Below, in pieces: positions 4,561 through 61,047 of a stretch of 64,000 bases of DNA. Below the pieces are notes generated by a model. That model made no database searches. It had not been told where the DNA came from and saw nothing but the letters and a program-made list of their open reading frames with translations. Position numbers and translations under genes: made by a program. How positions within the stretch are numbered: position 1 is the first letter of the stretch; each line of letters begins with the position of its first letter. Origin of the DNA: Rhynchonema sp. JSB1_4 (taxonomy: Eukaryota > Nematoda > Chromadorea > Monhysterida > Xyalidae); the NCBI GenBank assembly GCA_030248065.1, contig JASAMV010005931.1:1-64000 (forward strand). The letters run 5' to 3'.

Positions 4561-4579
4561 CAACACCGATTTTTGCGTT

Positions 4580-6012: not shown

Positions 6013-9000
6013 ATGCGCACAATTCGCTGGCGTCGCAAAGCCATGTTGGCTGCATCGGCACTTGGATTCCTATTGATCACATTTGGACTGATGACGATTG
6101 TCACAAACGATTCGGGTGCACCGAAAACATTGAACATGCACGGACGAGAGTTCAAACAAAAACCGTCGGTTACATTCTGTACACGTTTTCTCAATGTTTA
6201 TTGTGCCTGCCCTGGACTAACGCAGCGACAGTCGCGATTCCACATGCCAGTCATGTTAGAAAAGAAAGCAAGTCCAACACCACCCACCCCAAATTTCCCT
6301 CCCCCCCCCGCCCCCCCCCCCCCCACACCCTAAACAACCCCCCCGCCAACACCACAATGCCAGTCATGTTAGGAAGAAGGAGAAGCTACATAATCAGAAA
6401 TAAATGCACTGATATGTCCTGGTATAGTTGCCGCGTGAAAACACAGTTTTTTCCTTAAAACCCTTTTTTCAAGCGTTCCGGAGGTTTGGGGGAAAAACGA
6501 AAATAAAACCGGGCCGACTCGGGACCGTAAGTTTTTCCCCAAAAAAATTCGGCATTTTTTTCGGAGTAGGGGACAAACGTTTCCAAAGAATACAAAGAAC
6601 CGGTTCTTCGGCAATTACATGTCATATAGCTCATTGATGGCGTAGACCGCACTGGCCGCTTCTCAAAATGATTATCTCGAACATATTAGACCTTCTTCCA
6701 GACAGACCAGATCCACTTTGTTCGCGCCCAACCTCAATTTTTATGTGCTGGTGGGCAAACCCCATTGTATAACTTAAGTCAACCCGCCACACACACATCA
6801 CATTGCAGCAATACACACGAGCAATTGGCCAAGGACGCACACAAGGCAGCGATCGAGCACAACGGGGGTTTCGATGTTCGACAACGACCGATCAATGACG
6901 GTGGTCACAAACCGATGCAGGATGGACAACAGCCACATGCGGGCGTGTTCAAGCAGCCAACAGATACGGGTGGTGTTGGTGCTGGTGGTAGCAATGTACG
7001 CGAGCCGTTGCCCGCTGTCGCACCGCTCGCGTCTGTGAACTCGAATCACAACATTGATCGTGACCCGATCGTTTCGTTGCGGCAACAGAATCCACAAAAC
7101 ACAGACAATAATGCACAACAGCCGCCCGTGCCCAGTCAGTTTCAACCAGTTGGCCTGCGAAAACGACCTGATAAACCGCCACCGCCTGGTTATCCGATGA
7201 TAAAAAATGGAAAATTCATTGCGGGTTGGCAAGCTTGTGCCGTTTTGTGTATTTACTCTACATGCGTATTTTAATTAAGAATTCGTTGACTGTCATTCAC
7301 AGGCAATCGTATTGTACACTTCGATCTGAAGGGCGCTGCGCCAACCGTTCAATATCTGGTGGCGACATTCCAGTTGATCAGTAAATTGGGCGCTACGGGT
7401 GTGCTGCTCGAATGGGAGGACATGTTCCCGTATGAAGGTGTGCCTGGCATTATTTGTCTCGCTGACTTTGCTGCATGTTGACCTATTCTGGCAAATATAT
7501 CATGTTTTAGGTGCATTGGGTGAAGCACGTCATCGCAACGCGTACACCAAGTCGCAGATCAGACAAATTTTGACGGCGGCCAAGGCCAATCATCTCGATA
7601 TCATTCCGTTGGTGCAGACATTCGGCCATTTGGAGTGGATTCTCAAACTCGAACAGTTCTCTAAATTCAGAGAGGTCGACCGATATCCTCAGGTTTGAAG
7701 TCATCCTTTTGGTTTTAGCTTGTTTTTCAATCTATTTTCAGCGAGCTATGTATGTTGAAGGTTATATGCCTCGGCGATGACGATGCAGTGGCGATGGTGC
7801 GTGACATGCTGAGTCAAGTGCTGAAGCTTCACGCCGAATTTCCAATGCCTTACTTCCATATGGGCGCTGACGAGGCTTTTCAGGTCCGATTGGACTTTCA
7901 TCAATCTTCGTAGTATTCCCTGTCCTTGAATTTATAAATCGCCTGGGTTTCAGGTTGGAATGTGCCATGCTGATCAAACGCTGATGGAACGCGACCTCGG
8001 TGGGTCACGGGAGCGACTAATGTTGCGACATATAGCAGGCATTGCGGCGCACATATTGAAAGGTTGTCAGGGTTGTCGAATTTTTTTCATGCAAACTGAG
8101 AAAGCTGACACAAAAGTTTTTTTGTTGTCTTGCAGAGGCACCAGACACGCGTGTGCTCATGTGGCACGATATGCTCAACAACGTTGATACGGGCATGTTG
8201 AATCAGTACGGGTTAGTGCTGCCTCATACCAGTGATGTAGTTGGGGGAGGGGCAAAATGCTCCCAAACCTGGGCAATTTATGTATGTCAACCGAAAAAAA
8301 TCTACGCCCCCCAAACCCAGCTATCCGCAGTATGTTTACCGCGTCCGGACATCAACCAAAAAGTGTGGATTTTAGCGCTAAAACGGTCATTTTATGGTTT
8401 AATATAGTGTTGGAGGTGGGTAGCCCCCCCAGTACAGTGGGTATCCCCCTCGCCTGGTACAGTTGGTATCCCCCCCCGATGTCTGGTATGGTACAGTAGG
8501 TATCCCCCTATTTTCACCCCGGTACAGTAGGTATCGTCCCCCCGATTTTGTCCCAAAAGTGCCAATTTTTGACCAAAATGGCCAAAATTAATGTAAAATC
8601 AGTGGTTTTTGCCTCAAATTACCCAAAATTCGCGCGCCACGCGCGCAAATACTGCTTTTTCACACGATTCCACACATAATAAAAACATTAAAAATTTTCA
8701 CCCCAAAACCTAACCCCCCCAACCCCCCTAGGTACATAACCCCCCAGGCCGTCGGCTCTGGTACAGTAGGTATCCCCCTCTCCGAGCCCGGTACAGTAGG
8801 TTTCCCCCCTCCAGAGTACTCCAACACTGGTTTAAAATGATTAACCTTCCTGACATTTTTACCAACATACAGAAAATTCCCCTTTTTAAGGTCTATTTTT
8901 ATACCCCTAATTTTGGCCTCTGGGCCAATACCCCCAAATCGGAATCCCGGCCAGCTATCTGTCTACCGACCTGGACCACTCCACCTAACTACAGTATGTC

Positions 9001-10906
9001 TACCACCCGGACCAACTGCATCACTCCCTCATATGGTTTTCCATTACTAGCTCACGCACCTAGATTCAATTTCGTTGTTTCAGTCTTGGCACCCTGGTGG
9101 AGCCAGTTGTGTGGAATTACGCTGAAAACCTCGACGACCAACTCTGGCCGGACATGTGGCAACGTTTCGGTCAGGTGTTCCCATACATGTGGTCGGCTAG
9201 TGCTTACAAAGGTCAGCGCTAATTTCTGTTTTTATGTTTCCCCCAGTATGATCATCGAAATGGTTGATTACACAGGGGCCGATGGTCCATCTCGATTCTA
9301 CTCCAACATTCCTCACTACATGCGCAATCATATATCCTGGCTGACACACATGACCGAAGCGCACAAACAATTCAAAGAGTTCAGGGGTATCATATTGACG
9401 GGATGGCAGAGGTACGTTACGTTCAATCCTCACAATTTATTACTTGGAATCAGCGCGGCATTTGTAATTTTGCAGACATACCAGTATTTTACAAAAAGAT
9501 GACTTCTGAATCGGTGTGTCGTTCTCAGGTTCGATCATATGGCGTTGTTGTGTGAAACATTACCTGTTGGCATTCCGTCAATGGCCGTCAATTTGGCCGT
9601 GCTCAAGTCGGGTGGTTTCGACCGCGTCGTGGCCACGAATGTGTCCAATGTGTTGAACTGCACGCACAACATTGACGTCGATGCTGTCGGTATCATTGGA
9701 CAGTGCAAATTCCCCGGTTAGATATCCTTGGTGATGTTATTTGACCAGCGTATGTGAAAGTGTTTTTCGGCCTTCAATTACACAACAGATAACAACTTAT
9801 TCCATCTGCTTTTTATCCTCTATTTCAGGTTTCCGAGTGTACGAGGCTGTCCAAAGGTTGCATCTAGCTATTCTCAACATTGAGCAGAATATTGACACCG
9901 ACTATCAGGTATGCACCTTGTTTGTGGTAGATTCCTACTCACGAATACCCCGCGAAACCTAGGCGTAGACAGGACTCCAAATTAATTTTTTCAATAATTT
10001 GCTTAATACAACAGTCACACAATGCTCTCGCATCCCTTCACACCTGATTTTTTTTGTTCAGCTGCACGGCTGGGTATCCAGATACAACATCGAGCACAAT
10101 ATCTCCAACGCGTGGTACCTAGATCAAGTCAATGACAAAGTGGTAATGGCGCTGCATGAACTCTCGCAGGTCAACACTGCGCTCAGGTACGGCGTCGTGT
10201 TTTCTCTAGCTTGTACCTTCTAGGAACGTGTTATTATTGGCACAAATAATACGGTAACCCCCTTGTGAGCTGGGATCGGTATGTTTTTATGCCGATATCC
10301 GATACTTGGCAAACGCGGACTCCCGATAGTTCATGAAAAAAGCCGATACCCTTCACTTTTAACATCACCGGATATCCGATGACGTCAAAATACCAAAATA
10401 TTTTTTCAAAATACTTTTTCGAAAAACGAACGACGCTCGAGATTTCTTGAGATGCAGAGCTGTTTTTATTAAGAAGGAGGTTCTAATGGCGAAAATTGTA
10501 ACACCCAATACCTTGGAAAAACATGCCGATACCCGATAGGCGATTTTAGGGTGCCGATGCCCGATATTCCTTCCCATTCGTTAGTATTTAATTTGTGCCA
10601 CTCTCTATCTGATTTGCAGACGCGAAATGCCACTGGTGTTCCATTCATCGGACACGACCGACGAGTTCATATTTGAGTACGTGGAGCCACATTTGAAACG
10701 ATTGCAAGATCTGCAAACTGCCATCAAAAGGATTGGTTCGCAGAAAACATTCGCTGTCAGACCGTTCAGGTCGGTGACAGTTGTTGTAAATGGGTTGCTT
10801 TTGTGCGTAATACACTCATTGTTTTCAACAATGTTTCAGAATAAAATCGCTGCCCCAGCAGAATGCACAAGACGGTGGTGGTGGCCTGAGTCGACAGACG
10901 TTATAG
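6013..10906 (+). CDS. Hexosaminidase D-type beta-N-acetylhexosaminidase (GH20)
   Basis: A 14-exon model of 688 residues: 6013-6164, 6809-7224, 7303-7437, 7511-7692, 7761-7883, 7954-8062, 8136-8211, 9084-9211, 9276-9411, 9529-9716, 9829-9908, 10062-10186, 10620-10769, 10840-10906; TAG stop. The family removes terminal GlcNAc/GalNAc from glycoconjugates. Residues about 10-33 form a hydrophobic N-terminal anchor, followed by a long Pro/Asn/Gln-rich linker. The GH20 part starts near [13 protein letters not shown] and contains [22 protein letters not shown], the catalytic Asp-Glu pair in HMGADEAFQ (about D332-E333), [22 protein letters not shown] and GIILTGWQR, all matching human HEXD in order. 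The N-terminal anchor and linker suggest a type II membrane or secretory location rather than the cytosolic form. Introns 7 and 12 contain repeat insertions. Exon 5 uses a weak acceptor after GTTGAAG, chosen to restore the VICLGDDD frame. Confidence 0.93.
8212..8830. repeat. Modular repeat element in hexosaminidase intron 7
   Basis: The middle of this 872-bp intron is filled by GGTACAGTAGGTATCCCCC-type units, at least six of them around 8430-8530 and 8755-8810. They are separated by an AT-rich core with a CGCGCGCCACGCGCG palindrome at 8631-8645. The same satellite word occurs in reverse orientation at 33200-34020. Intron borders at 8212 and 9083 remain intact. Confidence 0.65.
10255..10590. 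mobile_element. MITE-like GATACC-rich element (copy 1)
   Basis: This block of GCCGATACCCGATA words lies in hexosaminidase intron 12. It matches the reverse complement of 38800-39275, sharing GATAGTTCATGAAAAAAGCC and CCTTGGAAAAACATGCCGAT. The ends are imperfect inverted repeats (GGGATCGGTAT...ATATTCC). There is no open frame. The family looks like a non-autonomous DNA transposon. Confidence 0.55.
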
Positions 10907-26610: not shown

Positions 26611-29600
26611 CTATTCATCGGTGTCAGCGAACAATCGTGTGAGTTGTGCGTGATTCTGTACGGCCTTGGTCGTGTTGTCGATGTGCAACTCACGATGACG
26701 CATGCCTGTCTTGGTGATCGCCTCATGCAACAGATGTTCGAGCGAGAATTGGATGAAACCATCAAAGTAGGCCGGGTCGTAGACGTCCGTGAAACCGAAT
26801 GTGCTGCTCTGCAACAAACATAAATTGAATTGATAGATATCAGTCTGCAATGTCACGTCACCAACTTCACTCATTGTCGTCACATCCACCAAGACGGGCA
26901 CTTGGTTGTTGGGATCGGTGATTTCGGGACCGCGACTCGAGTGCTCCCAATGACCGGGACTCGCTGAACGACCCATCGGACTCACGCGAAACGCGCTCAT
27001 ACTTGGTCGACCGACGCTGCCAACTTGTCTGCAACCAAACATGCTGGAATGACCATGTTCTGCTGCACAAACAATCGCTATGACCGACCTTCCGCCACCA
27101 TATCCTGGGCTCGGGCTGCCAGCACCACTCAGCGGTCCACCGCGACTGCCGCTTCGACTTTGCCTTTAGCACAAATGAACTTTTATGTTTTCAGTTTTTT
27201 CTTGTAAAATCAGTCACGTATAAAACACAGATAAAATGCCAACATATGAAAGCAAAAATCACACCTTCCCCCACGGCGGCCCGGACTCATGCTACCCGCA
27301 CGACCACTCCTGCGATCGCTGCGACTGCCGCTGCGGCTCTGCCTGCAGTGAATTCGCAGCTTAGATTAAACATAATCGTGGTTCGTTTCACTTTTATAAT
27401 TAGCGTCAAATGAAAGATATAGAACCCACCTTTCCCTACCGCGTCCCGGACTTCTGCTGCCCGTTCGACCACCCATCGGTGTTGTGCGACTGCTGCGACT
27501 GCCGCTGCGGCTCTGTCTGCAAGGAAATCGCAGCTTAAGCATAATCGTGGTTCGTTTCACTTTAATAATTAGCGTCAAATGAAAGGTACAGAACCCACCT
27601 TTCCCTGCCGCGTCCCGGACTTCTGCTGCCCGTTCGACCATCCATCGGTGTTGTGCGACTGCTGCGACTGCCGCTGCGGCTCTGCCTGCAATGAAAATGC
27701 AGCTTTAGATTAAACATAATCGTGATTCGTTTCACTTTAATAATTAGCGTCAAATGAAAGGTACAGAACCCACCTTTCCCTGCCGCGTCCCGGACTTCTG
27801 CTGCCCGTTCGACCACCCATCGGCGTTGTGCGACTGCTCCGACTGCCGCTGCGGCTCTGCCTGCAATGAAAATGCAGCTTTAGATTAAACATAATCGCGA
27901 TTCGTTTCACTTTAATAATTAGCGTCCAATGAAAGGTACAGAACCCACCTTTCCCTGCCGCGTCCCGGACTTCTGCTGCCCGTTCGACCACCCATCGGTG
28001 TTGTGCGACTGCTGCGACTGCCGCTGCGGCTCTGCCTGAAAATAAGTTGTCTCTGTCAATTAGCAGATCTGCGACACGATAGGTTTTATTCCAAATATTT
28101 GCTTTTAACTCGCGTCACCTTTCCCTGCCGCGCGTGCGACGACCCGTCGGACTCCCGCGACTGCTGCGACTGCGGCTTCGACTTTGCCTGAGCAATGAAA
28201 CCGAATGTCTGGTGATTCTCAAATGTCAAGAATGACATGGCATACCTTCGTGGACTGCGACTTGCTGGTGATGTTGCACGATCACCTGATGCACCCAGAT
28301 CCGGTGCTGCACTGCGACCTCGACCCGGACGACCGTCGTATCGGATACGTCGTTTTGGCGATCGACCGCGGTTGAGAGCATTCCATGCTGACGACGGTGA
28401 ATGACCTGTTCGTCGATATTGTTTCAATATTGTGAAGTTGTCTAAAGTGAATCAAGTCCAAACCTCGACTCCTGCTACGGCTCGGTGTGCGTGCACGGTT
28501 GCGCGACCGACCGGGTGGCATCGTTGTTGCACGACCACGGGGGGACGGAGAACGACCGACATCACCCTGTCCGCGTCGTCCGCCGCTCCCAGGACTCTGA
28601 AAATAAATTTCAGCCTATCATTCTGATGTTTCAAGCAAATGTGGATTCTTCACTTACGAATCGCGCTGCTGATTGCGGTATGGCCGTGTGGAACGACGAT
28701 GAGGCCGGTGTCTGAAAAAATAGAGATCAATCAATTCGGTTAGGCGATCAAATACCGAAAGAACACACCTTGCTTCTCGCTGACATCGGTGTTCGGTAGT
28801 CGGCCGTTGCAGGCGTGCGACGTGGTGATGGAGTTCGACCCTGCCAAATACTTTGCTCGTCCTTGAGTCTACAGATGTAGGCTGTCAAAAAAATTGAAGT
28901 GAAACTGTATTGATCATAACCTTTGATTTTGATCTCGAGCGGGACCGGCGTCGAGGCGATGGGGTGCGGCCCTGAAGTCATCGGCGGTTCTGTTTCCAAT
29001 CAGATCTGCTTCAAAAACCTTTATTGTGCTATGTTGTGCTTACCCTCGACTTTGAGCGGGAGCGCGGCGATTTGGATCGACTCTGAAACGAGCCCACTTG
29101 AAGGTCCTTCGTCTTTCGCAATCAACTGTGCACAATAACCTTTGACTGCGATCTCGGTGCGCCCGGCATCGTCAGTGGCTGGACGGGCGCACCGCGTCTG
29201 ACGTGCAGTGGTTGTTGTTCGGATGGTGTTCTTTGTTTTGCACTTGAGTCGCTTGGCGCTCCCGACGGACGAAACCAATTCCAGAGCGACCAAGCTGAAT
29301 CAAATTGGAAAGTTATTTGACGGAACTTTGACTGATCAAACTGGTTGAACAAATGACCCAACGTTGTTGTCCACTGCTGTCTGGTTTCTTGTCGCGGTCT
29401 GTGCTCGTTGATCGGCTGCGTGGCTTGGCTGCAGCACCATTAGGTTTTTGGCAATAAAAAAGTAAAAAAATCGTATACTGTCTATGCAAACCTCGTCCAC
29501 TTTTCGATGAGCTTGGTGATGGTGTCTTGCTTGGTGTGGTAGCACGTCGTGGTGACTTCGATGCCGACCGACTTTTCGAGCGCGGACGAGAATCGCTTCT

Positions 29601-31353
29601 TGGATCGCTGCCAAATTCGAATGGTCGCTCCTGGGTCGGTGGTGGAAACACTGCAATACGAACATTGTTGAAGCGAGTATTGCCAAAGGTCGCACGCCAA
29701 CCGCAATGTCCCACTTACGCCATGGAACAGCCGTCTTTGGCGCGTGTTCTCCTTTCGGTAGTTGTGACAATTGTTTTGGGGTGATCGCAGCCGCAGCGCC
29801 GAATCCGCTCTGACGCATTTCAATCTGAAACTCCCCCTCCCTTTGAAGCTCAGGGTTTCCTGTTGTCCCACACAAATCAAGTGCATACGTACCATTTTAG
29901 CGCGTGCCCGTATGGGCGCCTTGGATCGTCGATTCATGTCACCGTTTCGATGCAGCACGGCGACACCCTCGATGGTGACCTGATCGGAAGCAGTCTGACG
30001 AGCCCGACCCACCACCAGCAGTGAGTCGTAGCCTGAAACGACAAGGCGATTGTGCTGGATTAGTGACAGGAGTTGGCGAAACATCAACTGACCATGGTTC
30101 ATTGGCGGCAGTTCATTTTCGAGTTGATGCATGTGATGGTAGAGCAACATTTTGGTGCTGGGATAACTCGAAGCGAGTTGATCATTCTGATCCGATGGAA
30201 CCGGCACCAGACCAGAACCGTTTTGGCACTTGAAAATCAACGATAAAGTTTAATTTTTGCAATAACCAACGATGAGGATACTTACGATTTGCGCGACGCC
30301 ACGAATCTCGGCGCGATCTGATTTCCTCGGATCGCCGTCTCGGTGGAACACGGCCACGCCCTCGAAGTCGCACAACTCTCGGCCTTTCGGATGCAGTCGC
30401 GCGCTGCCGACAAGAAACACCGCGTCGAAACCTGAAACACGTAAATTATAATACACCGAGTTGTGCTGTTACGCTCAGTATGTCTATGCCACGTCCGTGC
30501 GCCACGCTGCTGTTACTATTGTACCAGGGTTGCGGTGTGCCTGTCACGCGCCACGTTGCTCTTATTACGCTATTACGCACTTCGTTTGCTTGTTACGCGA
30601 TACCACCGGTCAACTGATTAAGCCTGTTCTGTAACAACACATGACCTGGTCTTAGGCTTAGGCCTGGGCGTATTCCTGATAAGGGCGCCCTTAGTCATAG
30701 TGGAAAATGGAAATGGAAATGCAAAAAATAATCTATGTCCAAGTTTTCCATTTCCATTTCCAATATGACTAAGGGCATACTGGAAATGGAAATGGAAATG
30801 AAATAAAACATTTACTGCAGAGCCATGCTTTGACATGTGACAAAAACATTTTCTGTTCCACTCAATTCTCGGCCGCTGATTGGTCAAATTTCACACAGAA
30901 AATGTTTTGTTTCATTTCCATTTTCCATTTCCAGTATGCCCTTAGTCATATTGGAAATGGAAATGGAAAACTTGGACATAGAATATTTTTTGCATTTCCA
31001 TTTCCATTTTCCACTATGACTAAGGGCGCCCTAAACCACACCTTATAGAAGGGCAACTGTTTTCCACCTTCTCACAAGCTTGGAAAGTTGGTTAATCTTT
31101 GCTCCGTTATGGCGAGGATAGGCATTTTGCCGTCCGGGTTCAAAATAGCTCAAACAACTGCTTATAGTTAAAAATTTGTGAACTTTGGTCCAGTAGCGCT
31201 GGCTTATTACAGCTCGTTTCATACTCTACACCGCCTAAAGGTTACGCAGATTTCGTCAGTGTTCGATTAACCAGAATTTGGCGGCGGCAATTGTCCAGCG
31301 AGTTGTTGCGTGTCATGCCAAAGCAGCAAACGACGTTGATGTTGTGACGTCAT
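26611..31353 (-). CDS. RS-rich nuclear protein with duplicated N-terminal domain
   Basis: A 22-exon model of 828 residues: 31272-31353, 30286-30431, 30093-30228, 29893-30032, 29719-29824, 29492-29650, 29363-29428, 29140-29294, 29044-29082, 28921-28971, 28769-28840, 28658-28711, 28464-28596, 28246-28405, 28119-28187, 27949-28035, 27774-27860, 27599-27685, 27430-27516, 27265-27342, 27089-27163, 26611-27028. All phases agree. Residues 1-165 are two copies of a roughly 70-residue domain (GFDAVFLVG...FEGVAVFHRDGD and GYDSLLVVG...IEGVAVLHRNGD), each split by a phase-1 intron in the same Gly codon. Residues about 205-690 are Arg/Ser/Pro-rich (SRSKSPRSRSKSR, GRTPSPRRRSRSR), including four near-identical exons. 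The C-terminus is a non-RS domain (TDIYQFNLCLLQSSTFGF ... HRELHIDNTTKAVQNH). The RS region suggests a splicing-related nuclear protein. I do not recognise the orthologue. A 60-nt optional intron near 26860 is possible. Confidence 0.75.
27265..28035 (-). repeat. Amplified exon array, 175-bp period
   Basis: Four 87-nt exons (27949-28035, 27774-27860, 27599-27685, 27430-27516) plus a diverged 78-nt one (27265-27342) are separated by near-identical 88-bp introns. Each intron has a GTGGGTTCTGTACC donor and contains TTTGACGCTAATTATTAAAG. Every exon starts and ends in phase 2, so copies can be added or skipped without a frameshift. Each encodes QSRSGSRSSRTTPM...GRTGSRSPGRGRE. The entry exon at 28119-28187 is an older relative of the unit. 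Confidence 0.9.
30683..31031. mobile_element. Foldback element in intron 1 of the RS-rich gene
   Basis: Arms of about 130 bp (30683-30813 and 30900-31031) are inverted copies with only a few mismatches, ending in GGGCGCCCTTAGTCATA. The arms are made of GGAAATGGAAAT / ATTTCCATTTCC words with an internal repeat of the CTTAGTCATA word. The loop is about 85 bp. It has no coding capacity and probably is a foldback MITE. Confidence 0.8.
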
Positions 31354-31710
31354 GATGACGAGATGGTGATGTCGATTTGATGATCTATTGATTTGGATGA
31401 AACTTTGATGATGCGATGATAATGGAAGAATGAATGGGAAATCGCGCAAATGTTCGGCCTTTTATGCTGCTCAGAAGCTTGATACGTCACGCCTCCCCTT
31501 TTTGTTTCTCGAAGGAAAAGTGAGTGTCGGACTGTGACTGGAACGAAGTCAAATCCTCGTACTGGCTTTGCCCACCAAGAAGAGCGCAATGGAAAGTCGT
31601 CATACTCGCGCTCGCGTTTAATACGCCAGCCTCACACTCTCCCTCAGTTCAAATATTTCTTCAACGTCAGTTTCATTCTTTATTTATCTTGTGTGCTGCA
31701 CTGCTGTAGG

Positions 31711-32041
31711 TATAGTCCGTCCACCAGCTCATGGCACTTTGTGTTGCCGCTGGCTGGTTTGTTCCCTTCCTCCACGTCCTAATGAAAGAGAAATTGAGTT
31801 TCCAAAAAAAATTATTTTTGCTCCTAAATTGTTGTTTTTATGAAATCGACGTGTTTTAAGATTTTAATTTAATTTAATTTTAAATTTGATCGAAGTCAAT
31901 CGTTTTCGACACGTTTTATTCATCTTTTAGTTTTTTTGCAAACTTGCTCACACTCAATTTCTCTTTCATTAGAACGTGGAGGAAGGGAACAAACCGGCCA
32001 GCAGCAACACAAAGTGCCATGAGCTGGTGGACGGACTATAC
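31711..32041. repeat. Long inverted repeat upstream of the RS-rich gene
   Basis: Arms at 31711-31800 and 31951-32041 (starting GTATAGTCCGTCCACCAGCT on the left) are about 91 bp each and nearly perfect inverse copies, with an AT-rich loop of about 150 bp. It starts about 360 bp upstream of the RS-gene ATG, in its promoter side. No open frame. Confidence 0.8.
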
Positions 32042-32288: not shown

Positions 32289-32681
32289 ACCGTAAAAACC
32301 TAAATAGAAGGGGGGCTCTATTAATTCACTGACCCCATTTTGGGGGGGCTCTATTCCGGGGGGCCTCTATTAATTCACTGACCCGAACCTGAAAAAATTG
32401 TTCCCAGAAATACCCCCAAAAACCCCTAAAAAGGGGTTTGAAAGGATGTTTTTTCGCTTCGTCAATAAGAGGCGTATTATGTGCTCTGAACGAACAACAA
32501 ACGTGCATAAATGTACCTATGTACCACTATCACGCCTTAATACACTACTGTATAGGGGATGTTACTTAGGGGAGGGCTCTATTCCGGCGGGGCTCTATTA
32601 ATTCACTGACCCCATTTTGGGGGGGGCTGTATTACGGGGGGGCTCTATTCCGGGGGGGGCTGTATTTAGGTTTTTACGGTA
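32289..32681. mobile_element. MITE with perfect 19-bp TIRs and TA flanks
   Basis: The left end TACCGTAAAAACCTAAATA (32289-32307) and the right end TATTTAGGTTTTTACGGTA (32663-32681) are perfect inverse copies. Taking TA as the target duplication leaves 17-bp TIRs starting ACCGTAAAAACC, the pattern of Tc1/mariner-type elements. The interior is G-rich with the repeated phrase CTCTATTAATTCACTGACC. A partial copy lies at 4300-4540. Confidence 0.7.
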
Positions 32682-33109: not shown

Positions 33110-35900
33110 ACAAGGGGCAGAGCAGAGAGCCATAGTAGTGGCTGGGGGGGGGTTTGGGGGGTTACCCCCCTCTCAGTCAGTGTTTGGAGGTACTCTGGAG
33201 GGGGGATACCTACTGTACCGCGCTCGGAGAGGGGGGATACCTACTGTACCACAGCCGATGGCCTGGGGCGGGGGGGGGGGGGTTATGTACCTAGGGGGGG
33301 TTTGGGGGGTTAGGTCTTGGGGTGAAAATTTTTAATGTGTTTATTATGTGTGGAATCACTGTAGTGGCTGGGGGGGATGGGGGGGGGATTCCCCCCCCCC
33401 CTAAGGGGTATCTATCTCGAGTCAACCCTTAGGGGGGGATGGGGGGGGAAGGGTATCTATCTCGAGCCGACCCCAAAGGGTATCTCGAGTAAGCAGATTT
33501 ATGCTTTTCAAAGGCAAAAATAGGTGTTTTTCGACCTCGGAACCCCTAAAAATCGCGCGCTCCGCGCGCAAACACCCAAAAATAGTCATTTTAGGCCAAT
33601 TTTCGGCAAAAATGTCAAAAAGTACCCATTTTTAGGCCAATTTTGCAGTAATATTGCATGCAAAAAACGGCCTTTTTTCGCCTTTTGACGGACCATAGGG
33701 GTATCTTGGGTAGCCTCTGGGGGGTATCTCGAGTAAGTCCGAAACCTTCCCCCCCCCTAGGGTATCTTGGGTCGATTGGCCTGCCACCACACTGTGTGGA
33801 ATCGTGTGAAAACGTAGTATTTGCGCGCGTAGCGCGTGAATTTGGGGTAATTTGAGGTAAAAACCACTGATTTTACACTAATTTTGACCATTTTGGTCAA
33901 AAAATTGGCACTTTTGAGGCAAAATCGGGGGATACCTACTGTACCGGGGTGAAAATCGGGGGGATGCCTACTGTACCATGCCAAACATCGGGGGGGATAC
34001 CTACTGTACCAGGCGAGGGGGGATACCCATAGTAGTAGTGGCTGGGGGGGAGGGTTGGGGGGTTACCCCCCTCTCAGTACTTACCTGCCACAAAACCCGA
34101 GGGGGGTTGGGGGGGTTGAGTACTTACCTCTCACAACTCCAAATCATACCTCTCACAAGCAATTTTATACCTTTTTAAGGCAAAAATCGGTGTTTTTCGA
34201 CCTTATTTTCCCAAAAATCGCGCGCTCCGCGCGCAAACCCACCCATAATACCTATTTTTAGGCGATTTTCGGCGAAAATTTGAAAAAAGTACTATTTTTA
34301 CCTCATTTTTTGGCAAAAATTGTATCACGAAAACGGTGTTTTTTTCGCGTTTTTGGGTGACCAAAATCATACCTCTCACGCTTCCGGTCCCAACCCCGCA
34401 TCATACTTACCTCCCACACATGGGCCTGCCACTACACTGGGCAGGGCAGCGCTGTGGCAGGGGCAGTGTAGTTCCTGGTCCGGCGCGGCGGTTCGTGTAC
34501 CTACCCCTTTTTTCCGTGTGGCGGTTAGTGTACCTACCTGGGGAGGAAGACCCAAATTCAGGAAAAAGTCACTTTTTGAGGTCGAAAATTTGACCGATTT
34601 TTAGCCCTTTTTATGCACTTTATAGCACATAAAAATAGGCACCCAAAAAACTTGTATTGTACCCTACCCGCCCCGAAAAATCTCCCCCCCCTCCCCCCTC
34701 CAAACCGGATTCCAGGTACACTACTTCCCTACCAGTGTAGTGGCAGGCAGATGGTTGCAAGGACCCTTGGGGGGTGGATCCAGATGGTTGCAAGGACCCC
34801 CCTACCCAGCCTCCGGGAGGTTGCAAGGTACCCCTGAGGTCCGAAAAAGGGTGTTTTTTGCATGCATTATACTGCAAATTTGGCCGAAAAATTGGTACTT
34901 TTTTGCATTGTGGCCGAAAATTTGCCTAAAATACCTATTATATGGAGGTTTGCGCGCGGAGCGCGCGATTTTTGGGGTTTTGAGGTCGAAAAACACCCAT
35001 TTTTGCCTATAAAAACCATAAATTGATGGTTGCAAGGTACCCTCCGGGGTGGTTGCAAGGTACCTACCCTTCCCCCCCCCCATCCCCCCCAAGGGGTGGT
35101 TGCAAGGTACCTACTCCTGAGGGGGGGGGATCCCCCCCCATCCCCCCCAGCCACTACACTGTTCCCTACCCGCCCCGGATTTTTCCACCTATGTACCGAC
35201 CCTACAAGCCCCGCAAAAGTAGCCACAGCACTGGGCAGGGGGGATTATCTTCAGGGGGGCTCTGCCTATTTGGAGTGAAAAATACCGATTTTATGCAATT
35301 TTGAGCCAAAACTCCCAACTTACTGTACCAGCCGCCGGGTGGCGACCTACTGTACACACCCATTTTTTAAAATGAAAGAAAAACCATAAATTAGTGGTTG
35401 CACTGCATTGCAAGCCGTGTAGTTCCTGGTCCGGAGGGGGAGATGCGGACCCTCCGTTTTTTCGGAGGGGGAGATAGTGTACCCCCGGCCCCGAGGGGGG
35501 AAGGGGGGGGAAGACCCAAATTCAGGAAAAAGTCACTTTTTGAGGTCGAAAATTTGGCCTATTTTTACCCCTTTTTGGAAAAAAATTCTTCATAAAAGGG
35601 GTATTTTGGCGACTTTTGAGAACATTGACCCAAAAATCACATATTTTAGGCCTAAAAATGCCCATTTTAGGCCTAAAATGCCTATTTTAGGCAAAAATTG
35701 GGGGAGATAGTCTACCCGGAGGGGGAGATAGGGGGATAGTGTACCACCTGAGGGGGAGATAGCGTACCCGAGGGGGGACCCCCCTCCCCCCAGGAACTAC
35801 ACTGATTGCAAGCAGTGTAGTACTTGGCCCAACCCAATCTATCTATCGTCAAGATCCTGGCCAAGCACTACACTGGCTGTTATATGGAGGATTACGCGCG
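33110..35900. repeat. Array of modular inverted-repeat elements
   Basis: At least five element modules lie in tandem. Each is bounded by CACTGTAGTGGCTGGGGG- or CAGTGTAGTTCCTGG-type termini and carries its own satellite word: GGGATACCTACTGTACC (33205-34020), GGTATCTATCTCGAGT (33405-33490), TACTTACCTCTCACA (34078-34400), GTGGTTGCAAGGTACC (34745-35115) and GGAGGGGGAGATAGTGTACC (35435-35770). GC palindromes TCGCGCGCT(C)CGCGCGC sit at 33553-33569, 34218-34234 and 34952-34968, with a related GCGCGCGTAGCGCG at 33823. Clear boundaries include 33357-33794 and 35415-35804. Poly-G/poly-C runs up to about 12 bases are frequent. No protein coding. Confidence 0.65.
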
Positions 35901-48502: not shown

Positions 48503-51500
48503 TTAACCGAAATACGCCAGTTTCTTGACAGCCTGATGCACTCGCACGCAATCAGCTAATGTTTCATCGGATCGACTGGAGCCTTCGCGTGTTGCACTGT
48601 CACGATCGGTGGCACCGTGCGAACTGGACGATCGACTGAAACATTACCTTAGGTCGGGTTGCGCGTGAAAATCAGGATTACTTTTGTGGCTGGTTTTTGA
48701 TTGCAAACATGCGCTATAATAAATACCAGCTGAGAGACGAGGTGGGGTGAGGTGATAGTGAAGTGACTTGATTATCACGTTGAATTGCTCTGTTTCGTGT
48801 ATTCGATAGCTTGCGAGAATGTGGGTGTTGGCTAAGTGAACAACGCTGCGATTCTAATTTGTGTTTGGCGAAATAAAATAAAGATCGGGAAATCGCGCTG
48901 TTTAGAGAAAGTTACAGTTTCACGCATGCATGCACACTGCACAACAAATCAACGGCTTACCCATCTGTTTGTTTCCGCGAACTGTAAATGTTCCAACAGG
49001 ATAAAATTTTGGAGAAAAAACATAGATCTAAGCGCGAACGGGACACAACAATGAGTCGGACGAAATGAGTCAGACGAAACTCAAACAAGTCAATTTGGCA
49101 GGACTTACAAGTTACGTTAGGCAGTCGGACTGTTCCAGAGCGTGGCAAGGATTCTGACTGGTCTCATCTTTGTCATCATGCCCATCGGTGAAGTACCAGA
49201 GGAAGGTAAGCGACGTATAGTTATGTTGTGTTCAAACATGGATCACTTACTACAACGCATCGTAGTGCACTCTGGCGCGTGTGCACGCCTTGTCAGCCAG
49301 ATAGACGGGTGCGGGTATGCCCACGGATCGGTTGCATCTGCCGTACACATGACACAGCTTGTAGGACAACATCTGCAGCTCGTCTGCTGTCGAGTTCGAG
49401 TCGTCGTGCAGCACACAGTAGTGCGCGGGACGGGACGTGCCCTGCAACATTTGCATTGGATTATGTCTGGGTGATTAAGTTTGGCAAGATCTGCGCTCCC
49501 AAACAGAATGATGAGCGCAGCGCAACAACACCAAGGGTGGACACTCACAAGAATGCCAGCATGTGAGCAGAGATAGTAGTCGAAGTAGTTGGGTGAGACG
49601 ACAGCCGTGTCGACAACGGTGCCAGCTGGGATGTTGCCCGCTCGACCCTGTTCGTCGCCCTTGTTCGCGCAGAAGAATCGAGTGTGATGACGTTTTTGGA
49701 CGACGATGTAGGTGATTGACGGGCGATAGTTGTCGTCCAGTTGACGGCATGCCGCCAGCACACTCCCCATCTCTTCGCGCAGCACCTGCAGGCATATGTG
49801 AAGTGTATTGTGACATGATAGGGAATCATAATTTTGTGTTCCTAAGGTTGACGATAAATTGTGTATACCAAAATATCGTTCTTCACGGTATGGAAGGTAT
49901 CATTGTGTAGAGTTTCACTGAGGGTACGGTGTTCTGGCCGGCTGATGTTTCACAAAAAGAATTATCTTGAAGACGCACTTTGACGAATTCCCCCTCGGAC
50001 ACTCCGTCCCTGAACACAATGATTCGACCGGGCTTGTTCTCGGACACGCGATAGAACTCCATTATACGATCTTGGATCTGGTCACGCATGTAGATCACAT
50101 GCTCGCGACGATTGCGTTGGATCTGCAACGTGCACCTGATGTTTCCAAAAATACGTATGTAGTTACTCTCTACATTGATAGCACATGACCATCAGAGCTG
50201 CACAGTGTACCACCCATAGGAGATCACATGTTTCTTGTTGTTTCAAATCCATCAAGCTACAACTGACATCTCGTAAAAATCCGAAAACGCACCTTGATTG
50301 ACGCAGCCCATTTGGACGCTCCTATGTCAATATTGCCAATAATGGACGCAATGGACGGTCCCTTATCGAATGGGCCCGGATGGGTGACGTCCACGCCGAG
50401 GAATAGAGTCGGACATTTTGGGTTGGTGAATTTGCCAAATCTGAGTAATGTTGATTAATGTTGTGATCAAGATCGATGGATCGATTGTAGCGAATGCTCA
50501 CATTTCATCCGCCTCAATCGCGTTGTTCACTCCGCCCATTTTCATGTTGATCTTCAGGCACACGTTGAATGCCGTTGCGTTCGGTTCACCGGGCCGACCT
50601 GTCACATTGAATGGCCTTGATGAATCAGGCTGCGAGACAACAATTAGGGACATCCATCACAATGTGCGCAAGGTGCCACCCACCTCTGAGCGATGTTTCA
50701 ACGTTCTTGCGCAGTATGCATTGGGTGATAATTCCGTGCTCAACGTCGCCGCCGCGTTTGATCAGATCTGACAAGATGATTTTCGTCAGATTTTTAAGTC
50801 AACTTGCCACCCTCGTCGTTATCATGCCCATTCGAGGCGTACATTTGCAGGATAAGCTTGAAAGGACGCATTCTAAAGTAGAGGCCGGCCAATGTCGGGT
50901 GCCGCCATGCAAAAAAGTATTGATGTCGGGTTTTGATACCCTCAGAATTTTCTCTGACATGTCCAGTGTCAGTTGTCGGGTGTCGGGCCCAAAAAGTGTA
51001 GTTGTCGGGTGTCACGTACCCCCTATCCCTATTCTAGAGTATCACCACACTCACTGTACACATCGGGGATGCGATCGGGCATGACGACCAGCACAAAGTT
51101 CAGTCGTTTCTCCTTGAAGGTTGGTGATTGGACGGTTTTGAACAACTGCGGTATTTCCTCGGCCGTTTTGACGCGAACGCACGTTATGCATTTCTCCATT
51201 CTGACACCATACCGACCCAGCCAGGCGGGCAGTTGGCCACAGAACTCCCTGCGAACGCACAACTGACATCATATATTTAATGAACGGTTTGTTCTATTTT
51301 GTGATCCTGCTATAATTTCACTGGAATTCCAGTCAACTTACTTGAGCTGATTATTAATCCAAGCTTCATCATTTGGCGTTGCCAGACAACACGCGGCCAC
51401 AACCCATCGAATCGGCTCGTCAGGTGTTTTGTGGAACGCGGCAGTCTGACGCCACCCACCTTTATAAATCGGGGATTTTAGACCATTAAAAAACTTTCTA

Positions 51501-54500
51501 TGTGAAAAGACATGTATTAACCTTCAGCCGGTTGGATGACTTTGCCGTTTCCCAGCAAAAGGCCTGGCGCTGGCAGTTGACGACCGTTGATCTGTTAGGA
51601 CATGAAACATCATACATATTCGTGCTAGAACACCGAACGGCAATGGGCATGTTTTGACATGCAGCCCTTGTATGGTAAATTTCTAATTTCGTTGCCTCAC
51701 GCATTCTTACAGACGCAGGAAAACTCCCGTTCGAAGTCGAAGCAGGCAACAAGCTCAACACACAGTCAACAAGCCACGCAGCTGGCTCGTGTGCGTTTCG
51801 AATGTTTCAGCCACACAAGCTGTGTGTGTCAGCTGCGTGGCTTGTTGACTGTGTGTTGAGCTTGTTGCCTGTCTCGACTTCGAACGGGAGTTTTCCTGCG
51901 TCTGTAAGAATGCGTGAGGCAGCGAAATTAGAAATTTACTATAGTACCTGAAGCATATTTGTGTCCAAGGTGACACCGAAACTGTCCATGAATGGATTAG
52001 ACAATTGTTGACCCTGTGCGTCCCTCAACATGTTGATGATGTCCTGCTTGCGTTGCGGTGCTGGACGGTTGGAGTTCTGGGATTGGATATCGGTTACGGA
52101 GATCGTTAGAGCTTGGGTAGTGATAATAACAGGGACTTTGCTCGTCGAGTCAAGAAAGACATATTTGAGATTCAAGCACTGCGTTGGCAAAGGAAGCCTC
52201 GCTGTAAGTTATCCATCACTTCACAACAGTCCCGACATGTGAGACGTTGTGCGCCCATTCGTTATCATGCCCATCGGTGGCTCTTAACGCACATATTACA
52301 GTGGCACCCATGAACAACTCTGATGATAAAAAATGACCAAAAAACCAACCCTGATGAGTCTTGAGGTCTGTTCACCAGTGACACGAGTGTTGTTCACCTT
52401 CTGAGGCATGTCGGCCAACGCACAGAACTCCATCGGGATCTCGATGTGTCGCTGTTTGGAGCCCAGCGACAAACACGGCAGATTGGGCAACGTGACTGGG
52501 TTGTTGCGCTCGATGAAATAGTCGAACACGGTCAGCTCGGCGCCATCGCGTGTCGTGAATCTGTAGTGTGGCTGACATCTGCGAGCATCGAATTGCATCT
52601 GCCGCTCACAAAATTGATCACGCCTGACTTTCTCTATCAGGCATATTTCGAGATTTACTCATGTTGTCAGTAATTCCGCCCAGCGTGAAAGTTGTTCCCA
52701 GATATGGAAACAAGTTTAACGTGGGCCGAATCATATCACTGCGACCACGAATCGCGTTTATATTACGCTAATACAAATAAACTACCTGATATTTCTGGGC
52801 GCTTCAGCCATCTGCATGAACTTGAACATTCGTTCCTTGCCCTGGCCCATGTAATTGGTGCGGATCTTGAGTCCCTTCAGTTCACGACCCAGCAATCGAA
52901 CCCATTCGGGCAACAGCGTTGTCGTCGGGGTGATCTGCAAGTTGTACGGCATAAAAATTTTGTTATCACCTACATACATACATACATGCAGCAATGATTA
53001 CAAAAGAATCACGCATGGCTATCTCAGACAAAGACAGCAACCTCTTAAGGGCGAACTAAGGTTAAATCCGGAATCCGGAAATAATTTGCATGCAAAAATA
53101 CAAAACATTTCTGGGCTCCGGAAATATTTCCGGAAAACGCAAGAATTTACATGCAAAAATAACGCGTTTTCCGGAAATAATTCCGGATTCCGATTTCCGG
53201 ATTCAACCTAAGCCCGCCCTTAGTAATCTTAGTGCTTCGATGATTCGCTCCCGTTGACTCTGTGGAACAGACGCTTTCAGAGAGAATGGTAAAATACATA
53301 CATATGATTCCAATTGTCGTTAAGAAGTATTCACCTGATTTGGTTGATATTTCTTTTGTGGCCCGTCGTTGCCCTTGTTGAGTATGTCGCACAGAAACTC
53401 GATTACCGAGCACTGTTTGTAGAAGGCGGTGTGCGTGACTGGAAACGGAGGCGGAACACTAGTTGATACAGAGCTGGTCAGTCATGTCTGGCTCAAGTTA
53501 CTGAAACTTTTTTCAATTTTTAAGCTCCGAGTAAACTTACTATCGACATTAATGAGCGGTGTAAAATCATCGCCGACTTTTGCGGCCGAATGGAATCCAC
53601 GCCACATTTCGCGTCCCATGCTCAACGGTGGTGCCGGCTCGTTGCTGGGTCGGGTGTAGATGGACTTGCCGTGTGGATACCATTTGATTGACTCGCTGTG
53701 AGATGTGTAATTGGTTGCATGATAAAATTATCAAGCCTTCAATGGGCATGATAACAATGTAGTTGTCCGTGTGGTCAGCTTGTCAACGATGGGACACAGT
53801 GCACACAGTTTCTACCAGTGCGCGCTGCGACACTGCATATTGAAACATCACAGCAACAACAGAGGTTAACTAACGGGTTTCCGGGATATCGCAGCCATTG
53901 CGACAGTATGACGTCCACAATCTGTACGGGTGCCATTGTTCGGTCGTCCAGCTCTCCGTACGATTCCTTCATGTCAACAATGTGTGACCCGGTGTACTGC
54001 ATCCGAACACTGTAGTCTGACGTACGATCGTCGGTCGATAGTTTGTAGTTGGACAACTCAAACGTGCGCTGCAAAAATAGTGAATTGTAGTGCAACAAAT
54101 ATCAAAAGGTTCATAATCCTGTTGTGTTGGGATTGACTGGTACTTTTTACATTGATCGGTCAATTACCATAGTATCCAATATCACTGAACACGGTGAACG
54201 TGATATCGGCAAAAATGTTTTCGATAAAATATAAATTGACGTTGGTGATCTGCGGCGAGATGTGCCTTACCATACCATTCAGGAAATGTTTGGATGGATT
54301 CTTACACCAAGTCATTGTCTGACCAATATCATGCCTATCGGAGCGCGTTTTGCCATGTGCTGTGGTGCCAATAAATTGGCGAAAAGCGGGTCAGGAAAAA
54401 ATGTCGTAGCTTCAAACCGTGCCCACCTCTCCGTTGCCCAACGGCAACTTTGTGAGCGCGTAGCAACACTTGCTGTCGTCATAGACTTGCGCGAAACGAT

Positions 54501-58538: not shown

Positions 58539-59411
58539 TCAATTCACTTCATTATGGTCAGTCACAGCATCCAACAGCTCATTGGTCAATGTCAGTCGCT
58601 GTCCGTTCCATCGAATGTGCGTCGGTGGCTGTTGATCGCCGTTTTCAAAATCGAACGATTTCGCCAACTCCAACGCCAACGCCGATCTGACGAGTGCCAC
58701 ACCGCCGTACTGGCCGGTGGTTGGGTAATAGACACGACCAGACGCTGGCAACATGCACAGTCGGTTGGGATCGAACGGCACAATCAACAGATCGGATGCG
58801 TGATTGTATGACAGGTATTCGCGTTGATCATCGTCAATTGAAACATCTGCAGACTTTGACTGTCGGCGACGACGATTGAGCAGCTCGGAGGGACGGAATT
58901 TGAGAATGTGCGTGTAGACAATCGGCACGTCATCACAACGAACGAAGTTCTGCTCGCGGCCGCACAGACTCAGCCAGGGAAAGTGTTCGTCATATTTGCC
59001 AGATGTGTTGACGCGCAGACGTTTGAAGAAGAATTCGAGGAACACCTTGTCTGAAATCGAGTGCGTTCGCTCGATTACAAACGAACGCCAAATCTTGAAA
59101 CCTGCCAAACGAAGATGCAGATCACACCTTTGAAACACGACGTGAAATTTTTCATGCGCGCATCGTCCAAGAACAGCTGAAGTGATAAAATCAGGATGCA
59201 CCATGCATAACTTTTGATTGTTTGTTGTCTCACAAACCTGCCCGTGATGATCTATGTAATAGAAATACTCTCGTACGCCTGACTCCGGTTCGAATCCCTG
59301 AGTGTAGCCGACAACGTGTTGAACACTGGCACTTTTAGTCGAATCACACAGATACCGTTTGCAATCATGGTACAGACTCGTGCGACGCGAATAAAATATC
59401 AGTTTCTTCAT
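58539..59411 (-). CDS. UPF0598 family mitochondrial protein (C8orf82-like)
   Basis: Three exons (59238-59411, 59128-59176, 58539-59050) encode 244 residues. The start MKKLIFYSRRTSLYHDCKRY looks like a mitochondrial targeting peptide. Family signatures appear in order: GVREYFYYIDHHGQ, LFLDDARMKNFTSCFK, FFKRLRVNTSGKYDEHFPWL, SLCGREQNFVRCDD, VYTHIL, YNHASDLLIVPFDPNRLCML, GRVYYPTTGQYGGVALVRSA and HIRWNGQRLTL. The function of the family is not established. The whole region is open in a single frame of 376 codons, but reading through would replace the conserved LFLDDARMKNF segment with intron sequence, so the spliced model is preferred. Confidence 0.88.
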   Translation of the reverse strand: MKKLIFYSRRTSLYHDCKRYLCDSTKSASVQHVVGYTQGFEPESGVREYFYYIDHHGQVCETTNNQKLCMVHPDFITSAVLGRCAHEKFHVVFQRCDLHLRLAGFKIWRSFVIERTHSISDKVFLEFFFKRLRVNTSGKYDEHFPWLSLCGREQNFVRCDDVPIVYTHILKFRPSELLNRRRRQSKSADVSIDDDQREYLSYNHASDLLIVPFDPNRLCMLPASGRVYYPTTGQYGGVALVRSALALELAKSFDFENGDQQPPTHIRWNGQRLTLTNELLDAVTDHNEVN

Positions 59412-59505
59412 TTCAGCAGACCTTTTATGATGATCTGTAATGTTATGGGATATGTGGGCGAAAGAGGTGGGGAAACCCCAAGACACATGGAAAACTGACT
59501 TCCCA

Positions 59506-59560
59506 GGCTTAGGCTTAGGCGTGGGCTTAGGTTTACTTTTAGGCTCAGGCTTAGGCCAAA
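59506..59560. repeat. Degenerate interstitial TTAGGC tract
   Basis: Reads CTTAGGCTTAGGCGTGGGCT and onward, a run of TTAGGC with substitutions. Shorter similar tracts occur near 30648-30670, 32125-32170, 57525-57570 (inverse) and 61480-61530. TTAGGC is the nematode telomere unit. It lies just upstream of the UPF0598 start. Confidence 0.6.
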
Positions 59561-59801
59561 CCTTGAGCCGATCCGCGCGCTCTAACGCAAAATCAAAAAT
59601 TTGCATTTTCTGTCTCTCAAGGCAGGTGTCTTGCTTGGGGTTTCCCAAAATGCCGACCATTCTTCTCATATCATCTCACACTCGCGTTGAAAACAAAACT
59701 TGCATGCTGTCGAGAGTTGAAGATAACATGTTCCACATGCACCATTTTGTATTCTATAGCAATTTCTAGCTTCAATGCCCTACAATAAATGCGCCCCACT
59801 G

Positions 59802-60399
59802 TTAAAGGGGAAATTGCACATTCCTAATCGCCCTTCAAACTTTGAAAGTGCTTAGACTGCAGTCTGGGCATCACAAAACTCAAATTATTTAGTATGAATT
59901 TGCTAAGATGCATCCATGAGATGCAGTTCAAAAGGAACCGCCGGGAAGAAAATTTGCCGCGGACCGGCCGAATTTCTACCTGCACATTCAGGGTTTCAAA
60001 TGGTCTCGATGCGATCTGCTGTTTGCGTCAGAACAAAATGTTTCAGCCCACTCGCCACGCTGGTTGCACGGGCGATGCAGCACGCAATGAAAGAGAATGA
60101 CGAAATTTTCGAAATTTCTTTTGCGAGATGTGGCAAGTTGGCTGGTGCACCATGGAACATTTTGTTCTGACGCGAATATTAGCATATCGCGTCGAGACCA
60201 TTTGAAACCCTGAATGCGCAGGTAGAAATTCGGCCGGTCCGCGGTGAATTTTCTTCCCGGCAGTTCCTCTTTATTTGCATCTTGTGGTTGCACGTCTGAG
60301 AATTCGCAACAAGTGGTTTGACTTTTGTGATGTCCAAACTGTTATCTAAGCCCTTGTAAAGTTTGAAGGGCGAAACGGAATGTGCAATTTCCCCTTTAA
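59802..60399. mobile_element. TTAA-flanked foldback element 1
   Basis: The ends TTAAAGGGGAAATTGCACAT and its inverse CAATTTCCCCTTTAA are followed by long subterminal inverted repeats (TCCTAATCGCCCTTCAAACT; CGGACCGGCCGAATTTCTAC). The interior is unique. No transposase is encoded. TTAA at both ends fits the piggyBac superfamily target site. Confidence 0.7.
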
Positions 60400-61047
60400 A
60401 GGGAAAATTGCACATTCCTAATCGCCTTTCAAACTCTACAAGTGGTTAGACAGCAATGTGGGCATCATGAAAGTCAAATCCCTTTGTACAAAGTCTCAAA
60501 CATGTGCCCAGGAGAAGCATATTAAAAAGAACCGTCGGGAAGAAAAATCGGCGCGGACCGGCCGAATTTCTACCTGCGCATTCAGGCAAATTGCCTGATC
60601 AAAAAGCTGTCAAGACGACAGAATGTTTCGCATGATTCTTGAAACTCACCAACTATAGAATTTCGCTTTTCTTTATGTTTCGAATTTCGACGAATCGTTC
60701 CAGCGTGACAAGCAGAGCATGAAACATTTAGCAGACACGCTGGAACAATTCGTTGAAATTCGAAATATAAAGAAAAGCGAAATTCTATAGTTAGTGAGTT
60801 TCAAAAATCGTGCGAAACACTCCGTCGCCTTGAGAGCTTTTTGATCAGGCAATGTGCCTGAATGCGCAGGTAGAAATTCGGCCGGTCCGCGCCGAATTTT
60901 GTTCCCAGTGGCTTGTCTTAAACGGAATCTTTTGGGTACATGTTTGAGAGTTTATACCAAATGATTTGACTTTTGTGATGCCCACATTGCTGTCTAAACA
61001 CTTGTAAAACTTGAAAGGCGATTAGGAATGTGCAATTTCCCCTTTAA
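60396..61047. mobile_element. TTAA-flanked foldback element 2, abutting element 1
   Basis: This has the same termini and subterminal repeats as element 1, sharing the TTTAAA junction. Its centre is a second, nested hairpin (about 60652-60798) whose arms read CTATAGAATTTCGCTTTTCT and inverse, around GTTCCAGCGTG / CACGCTGGAAC. The outer arms are therefore interrupted by another palindrome. Non-coding. Confidence 0.7.

Follow-up and report, generated by a model that had tools for sequence, protein, structure and literature searches.

In the hAT transposon Hermes, BED domains bind the subterminal repeats and take no direct part in recognition of the terminal inverted repeats (TIRs) (PMC10368747), and in Herves binding of the transposase requires a repeated subterminal motif (PMC3143072). 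In the VANDAL transposons of Arabidopsis, repeated non-coding motifs differ among related families, and each is matched by its own VANC protein and co-evolves with it (PMC5735166, PMC10398659). Galileo, a member of the P superfamily in Drosophila, has a tip of about 40 bp that is conserved among families, while the sites bound by THAP fall in regions of the ends that are rich in repeats and specific to each family (PMC3688188). CMITEs, the piggyBac MITEs of corals, have an internal region that is better conserved among families than the TIRs (PMC2872659). Family-specific binding motifs and MITEs with a conserved interior are thus already known. The statement of the original prediction that known DNA-transposon families do not normally swap their subterminal repeats was therefore too strong, since VANDAL and Galileo are precedents (PMC5735166, PMC10398659, PMC3688188). 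A fixed hAT MITE chassis on which a single genome shows repeated, concerted replacement of a subterminal motif at five or six fixed sites was not reported in the titles and abstract openings listed when the literature, mostly non-subscription papers, was searched for VANC and for subterminal repeats of hAT elements or MITEs.

The locus described here lies on contig JASAMV010005931.1 of the nematode Rhynchonema sp. JSB1_4, in a stretch of 64,000 nucleotides that was analysed as a whole and is called the window below. Like Hermes and Herves (and Ac and Tol2 as cited there), its elements have 8-bp target site duplications (TSDs) and repeated subterminal motifs, here called words; in those known elements such motifs are bound by an N-terminal finger of the transposase and the tips are handled by its core (PMC10368747, PMC3143072). 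Unlike Hermes and Herves, the subfamilies found here keep the tips, the core and the places of the words yet differ in the words themselves, the words have one polarity, and no transposase of their own was found around the 60 hAT places described below. Related families with different repeated non-coding motifs are a likeness to VANDAL/VANC, which differs in that these are plant MULEs, large elements with tandem motif arrays and an anti-silencing role. A conserved tip with a family-specific binding region recalls Galileo, whose long inverted repeats, few sites and other transposase set it apart. The CMITEs differ as well: they are about 100 bp long, have a TTAA duplication and vary in their TIRs, whereas in the present elements variation spares the tips and falls on separate words.

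The end pattern of the elements occurred 28 times in the window at three or fewer mismatches against a mean of 4.0 in shuffled sequence, and none of 100 shuffles attained 28. In the genome searched (204 Mb, 5,747 contigs), exact matches to CAGTGTAGTNSCTGG numbered 10,793 against 7 for the reversed control, a count that implies about 5,000 elements. The repeat family seen at first is thus real, and stronger than had been claimed. Inverted CAGTG ends and 8-bp TSDs characterise these MITEs, as shown by a survey of 55 non-redundant end pairs spaced 250-520 bp apart, among which all eight bases agreed in 37, seven in 5 and six or fewer in 13. Agreement at seven or eight bases was therefore found in 42 of 55 pairs and in 0 of 165 distinct control comparisons, made with the right flank shifted by 10, 14 or 18 bases. 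Six end pairs of the window had at most two TSD mismatches; five of them (5476-5815, 33357-33794, 34733-35161, 35415-35804 and 62988-63390) had a perfect duplication and the sixth, 62886-63433, agreed at 6/8. The 37 perfect duplications favour T as their second base (T2) and A as their seventh (A7), each found in 32/74 with both strands counted, against 6/74 for the opposite base; on one strand T2 was present in 13/37, A7 in 19/37 and both in 10, the background in the flanks being 0.23 for T and 0.25 for A. This target preference is a tendency and no strict rule.

Elements of the hAT superfamily have the terminal consensus CAG/YAGNG and the target preference nTnnnnAn. The terminal inverted repeats of the CAGTGTAGT type agree with this start, and some left ends deviate from it (CACTG in F, CATAG in J). 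Because the 8-bp length, the CAGTG start and the T2/A7 preference all match the hAT superfamily, the blocks of the window are best described as non-autonomous, putatively hAT-type transposons (MITEs). Single elements are short (340-476 bp), uniform in size, rich in homopolymer runs and, judged by size and base make-up, probably non-coding; they are also present in high copy, as the core pattern of chassis I gave 3,820 genome matches and that of chassis II 2,320, with 0 for both controls. P elements also make 8-bp duplications, and no transposase was found around the 60 hAT places described below, so that membership of another superfamily with 8-bp duplications (P, KDZ/Zisupton or MULE) was considered. 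We regard it as highly improbable. The domains of P (PF21788) and KDZ (PF18758) gave 0 matches in searches whose controls were silent too, so that absence is not demonstrated, whereas hAT domains are abundant in the genome and the T2/A7 preference fits that of hAT.

The elements of the window, with the letters A to K used for word types and W1 to W5 for the places of the words, are as follows.

4539 to 5164, minus strand: F-type element of chassis II with the word GGTATCTATCTCGAG, its far part lost, split by an E element (matched by blastn with the family sequences at 4539-4687 and 5127-5164).
4694 to 5120, plus strand: E-type element with the word ATCTATCTATCGTCAACA and the ends CAGGGTAGTAGTTGG and CAGTGTAGTACTTGG, full length, 84% identical to the E consensus.
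5476 to 5815, plus strand: A-type element of chassis I with the word GGTACACTAACCGCCGCG and the TSD ACGTGACG, W4 lost through a word-to-word deletion.
About 8405 to 8829, plus strand: H-type element with the word GGTACAGTAGGTATCCCCC, ends TAGTGTTGGAGG...CAACACTG and flanks gtttaata/gtttaaaa (7/8); ends and flanks read by eye, word polarity computed.
33131 to 33177, plus strand: left-end fragment of a J-type element of chassis II (blastn of family sequences).
33178 to 34029, minus strand: H-type element interrupted by an F element (pieces 33178-33357 and 33793-34029).
33357 to 33794, plus strand: F-type element of chassis II with the word GGTATCTATCTCGAG and the TSD TGTGGAAT.
34033 to 34439, plus strand: J-type element of chassis II with the word CATACCTCTCACA, 95% identical to the J element of locus L042.
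34464 to 35233, no strand given: A/K chimera, with an A end and half core at 34464-34612 and a K half core and end at 34612-34711 and 35164-35233, and GGCAGGGG on both flanks.
34733 to 35161, minus strand: G-type element of chassis II with the word GGTACCTTGCAACC and the TSD TTCCCTAC, inside the A/K chimera.
35415 to 35804, minus strand: B-type element of chassis I with the word GGTACACTATCTCCCCC and the TSD ATTGCAAG.
35813 to 35875, no strand given: E-type remnant of 63 bp with both ends and one word.
62886 to 63433, minus strand: outer D-type element without a core, with remnants of W5, W2 and W1 (by eye) and a TSD of 6/8, host of the inner D element.
62988 to 63390, plus strand: inner D-type element of chassis I with the word GGTACGTCTGTTCCCCC and the TSD CCCGAGGG.

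The stretch from 33.1 to 35.9 kb, taken at first for a single block, is thus a nest of several elements. The terminal repeats said to be common to all blocks are absent from the block at 8.2-8.8 kb, which has no CAGTGTAGT ends and is bounded by TAGTGTTGGAGG...CAACACTG instead.

Several other repeats were seen in the window. Those at 63480-63700 and 5180-5423 start with CAGTGGTGTCGTTGGG and CAGTGATGTCGTTGAG, carry words of their own, GGATACC and GGGAAATTTCCC (by eye), and are perhaps more such chassis. At 8231-9030 an outer element encloses the H copy; its ends resemble CAGTGATGTAGTTGG and its word resembles CAGTATGTCTACC (by eye). A further repeat, with runs of G and with CTCTATTAATTCACTGACCC as its word, lies at 32290-32680, adjoining the nest, and at 4400-4520. 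Strong inverted repeats (79-99% complementary) at 59801-61048, 30682-31032, 31710-32041 and 51671-51943 belong to other element types, and a tandem array with a 175-bp unit in 4.2 copies occupies 27311-28038. Rfam and tRNA scans of the window returned nothing. On the minus strand, one open frame (49243-49899) contains a Piwi domain and another (58539-59675) a DUF4505 domain; the DUF4505 protein is 33-45% identical to animal proteins of many phyla among the matches listed.

Ten word types were distinguished, A to K without I, each being the word of one subfamily. The words on chassis I are GGTACACTAACCGCCGCG (A), GGTACACTATCTCCCCC (B), GGTACACTAATTTCCCC (C) and GGTACGTCTGTTCCCCC (D), those on chassis II are GGTATCTATCTCGAG (F), GGTACCTTGCAACC (G) and CATACCTCTCACA (J), and ATCTATCTATCGTCAACA (E), GGTACAGTAGGTATC (H) and GTACCCTACCCGCCC (K) belong to elements with cores of their own. 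The words named at the outset are present, in both arms. A single chassis for all of them is not what the cores show: A to D have one core, F, G and J another, and E, H and K each their own. Core alignments compared with shuffles gave z values of 64 for A-D, 78 for G-F, 38 for G-J and 31 for F-J; the other 24 pairs among the eight tested cores ranged between 1.0 and 14.5, which makes E, H and K distant relatives at most. For A to D and for F, G and J, comparison of the cores excludes that each word belongs to an unrelated element with no common core.

The word stands at five homologous places in chassis I, three to the left and two to the right of the core, and chassis II has six such places. 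G fills all six, J has no clear word at its fourth place, and in F two places hold full words and the others shorter variants (GGTATCTCGAG, GGTATCTTGGG). Words are constant chiefly at the head (GGTAC or GGTA), and changes fall after the head. Word orientation was uniform, with none inverted, in 10/10 families (one sequence per family), though the tips are inverted, so that relative to the tips the words of one arm point into the element and those of the other arm out of it. This one-way polarity fits poorly with a simple symmetric binding model.

Homogeneity of the words within a copy was mostly borne out, less so in F for the shorter variants just mentioned. A single word type was present in 22 of 23 full chassis-I elements, the exception being L043:348-738, whose left arm carries A words and whose right arm carries B words. 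B copies were counted as homogeneous with one A-like loose match in 6/7, which in the alignment is the first half of W2. One element, L041:429-768, was without any tested word; it had entered the first A consensus and was dropped afterwards. In a genome survey the third and fifth words were alike in 43 of 44 sampled elements against 13.1 expected by chance. The sample was drawn from 59 third-word matches among 100 listed of 3,170, taken as far as contig C116, on which the listed fifth-word matches end, and from all 100 fifth-word matches listed, and 15 of the 59 were excluded because they had no W5 partner in range. The sole mismatched pair is a doubtful exception, as a D word lies nearer by, at about 79 bp, under the 150-bp limit of the script. 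The earlier idea of a different word in each copy does not hold, since a word belongs to a subfamily of many copies: classed by nearest word, all 59 third words among the matches listed were one of four words. About 10 of the 100 W3 matches listed were point variants (by eye), and because the survey pattern fixed GGTAC, the spacing and the start of the core, words of another form could not have appeared in it.

The words and the core change at different tempos, as consensus sequences of the subfamilies show, with D divided into two lineages, D1 and D2. Between A and B the words agree at 37/60 positions (62%) and the core at 168/175 (96%) (p 3e-10), between A and C at 39/60 against 138/154, and between A and D1 at 17/59 against 151/174. 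The order is reversed only between D1 and D2, with words at 58/59 (98%) and core at 138/174 (79%). In each of the nine other comparisons that these five groups (A, B, C, D1, D2) allow, word divergence exceeded that of the core, with Fisher p values of 1.8e-16 to 2.2e-3 that treat word sites as independent, while the sites actually depend on one another. On chassis II the words of F and G agree at 30/66 and their core at 158/187 (p 2.5e-9), those of F and J at 22/56 against 140/187, and those of G and J at 33/56 against 130/188, where the excess of word change is not significant (p 0.2). Within subfamilies it is the words that are better conserved, in seven of eight groups: identity is 0.98-0.99 for words against 0.91-0.94 for the core within A, B, C and D1, and 0.995-1.000 against 0.955-0.972 within F, G and J, and within D2 both are 0.989. 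These contrasts mean that words change rarely and jointly and are otherwise held fixed.

The changes are also the same from site to site. The 21 word changes between A and C gave 36 site pairs with an identical change, against 4.6 under the null and with 0 of 5,000 draws as high, and all six pairs among A to D lay beyond each of 5,000 random draws. The spacers between the words are 47/55 alike between A and C, 35/55 between A and B and 38/55 between B and C; in the latter two comparisons they are as divergent as the words, so that the whole arm diverged there, beyond the word alone. Word change is therefore a coordinated replacement and no drift, which takes in the words alone or the arms, varying by case. 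Neutral capture of satellites, that is, tandem repeats born by slippage in the arms and differing by chance, would agree with words that are direct repeats, with the word-to-word deletions and with elements rich in homopolymers. It is nevertheless very unlikely, because the words are not in tandem and occupy homologous places separated by dissimilar spacers, because the distance from the third to the fifth word is 205-264 bp in 42 of 44 pairs, and because words outlast the core in 7/8 groups.

The descent of the words was compared with a tree of 175 core columns from 23 elements. The four word types need three changes on this tree, which is the minimum, and D forms one group with support of 94/94. 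Eleven of the 20 inner branches are open and A, B and C are unresolved, A and B alone needing 2 changes each, and a single A group is compatible with the tree test (p 0.42); with this weak resolution the tree agrees with descent of the word together with the core and says little on exchange among A, B and C. Word exchange had been considered for the two D lineages, as the D1 core is 0.87 identical to A and B and 0.79 to D2, and was dropped because the tree unites D with support of 94/94.

Three chimeras were found. The A/K element of the window (34464-35233) has its join at 34612 and a TSD of 8/8, which is weaker evidence than it appears because it lies in G-rich sequence; the A/B element L043:348-738 and L124:21-462, where a G end is joined to a D end, are without TSD. 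The core of C is nearer B (142/154, against 138/154 for C-A) and its spacers are nearer A (47/55, against 38/55 for C-B), so that C, with a B-like core and A-like spacers, may descend from an exchange. Given the three chimeras, arm exchange plays some part. If the arms were cassettes swapped by recombination or gap repair, a new word would come as a whole arm, and the chimeras, the A-B and B-C spacers that differ as much as the words, the composition of C and the poor resolution of A, B and C in the tree would all agree with this. We nevertheless consider it unlikely as the source of the words, since A and C have common spacers and differ mainly within the words at all five sites, the tree needs only the minimum of three changes with D as one group, mixed elements are 1/23 among full chassis-I elements and 1/44 in the survey (the latter doubtful), and two of the three chimeras are without TSD. 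The cassette exchange proposed in the original prediction thus occurs and is unneeded as the main process, given the common A-C spacers, the 22/23 unmixed elements and the tree minimum. Its other proposal, turnover by slippage or conversion, is plausible, because some deletions run from one word into another, as between W4 and W5 in 2/7 A copies, and words are direct repeats. These deletions and the coreless outer D element (62886-63433) suggest recombination among word copies, which would offer a route for a new word to spread.

On this evidence we propose, with a probability of roughly 0.6, that a hAT transposase recognises the words, as subterminal sites, with its DNA-binding domain and the constant tips with its core. 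The non-autonomous type assumed from the beginning is well supported (8-bp TSD, CAGTG, short length, high copy), and contact of the words with a transposase is plausible. There would be three layers with three tempos: constant 15-bp tips, a drifting AT-rich core and repeated arm words. The 15-bp tips are probably held by the transposase core, and the arm words may be read by its DNA-binding domain, which is separate and in known hATs is a BED-type finger, or by a different protein that the autonomous element encodes. Within a subfamily, selection would keep the words alike. Occasionally the recognised word would change and then spread across the sites of an element, aided by conversion or slippage between the direct word copies while gaps are repaired and, at times, by a swap of the entire arm, and the subfamily with the new word would then amplify. 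By analogy with Hermes, Herves and the ATCCCG and CCGACA hATs described below, the words would be sites of a finger, and the change of word would track a change of the finger. Several observations count against this reading: the one-way polarity of the words, the arm spacers that diverged as far as the words in A-B and B-C, the poor resolution of A, B and C in the core tree, the three chimeras, the G-J comparison, the lack of a clear fourth word in J, the equal conservation of words and core in D2, and the search for an autonomous element described next.

The original prediction called for a search for an autonomous copy with a transposase. Of 330 candidate matches to the hAT dimerisation domain in the genome, 150 were scored, and no autonomous element with chassis ends and words was found around 60 of them, examined in sets of 30, 20 and 10, the latter two on the 3' side only. 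Nearly all of these 60 places carry ATCCCG or CCGACA words, and the chassis elements there are apparent neighbours or insertion hosts. Around 30 BED-finger loci no chassis ends of an autonomous copy were found, nor was an autonomous chassis element in the 1700-2700 read downstream of the DUF659 match C4164:400-639. The DUF4371 and Hermes-DBD domains gave 0 matches, with controls equally silent. Two loci, L014 and L052, were considered as autonomous copies and rejected, being chassis elements with a CCGACA-type hAT inserted.

The hAT that is commonest at the dimerisation hits has the ends CAGTGTTCGAAC and its own subterminal word, ATCCCG, the word being present in 10/10 places and the end in 9/10. 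It is found with a transposase C-terminus in many similar copies (L016, L026-L028, L081, L085, L091, L114-L123). The hAT with the CCGACA word has the ends TAGGGATCGGCGTCGG and a near-identical BED-finger fragment at L014, L046, L052, L058, L064 and others, often in or beside chassis elements.

Alternatively, the words could be targets of a transposon-encoded anti-silencing protein like VANC, or could change to evade silencing by small RNAs, and would then not be cutting sites. The closest pattern on record is that of the VANC motif repeats, which vary from one VANDAL family to a related one and co-evolve with the VANC protein (PMC5735166, PMC10398659), and turnover of words in non-coding arms would suit an arms race. 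This explanation is improbable in our judgement: around the 60 hAT places there was no coding copy with chassis ends, the VANC motifs are tandem arrays whereas the chassis words stand at five or six fixed places near both ends, as for end recognition, and the ATCCCG hAT of the same genome also has its word beside the tip.

If the words are read by the transposase, the chassis could be a vehicle for interchangeable words, in which a lineage that has switched its word at almost all sites together escapes the old transposase or the host and founds an orthogonal subfamily; we put this forward tentatively, as somewhat less likely than not to be right. The four words of chassis I would then imply three or more switches, and the three of chassis II two or more, in one genome. 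A change of recognition sequence is hard to study because all sites must change together with the protein, and here several closely related outcomes coexist in one genome, with copies in the thousands and a chassis that can serve as an internal clock. The question can be tested through the cores, the words and, once found, the fingers of the transposase. If true, this would be a natural code that pairs words with DNA-binding domains, and if words and fingers pair off, they may serve as orthogonal transposon tools.
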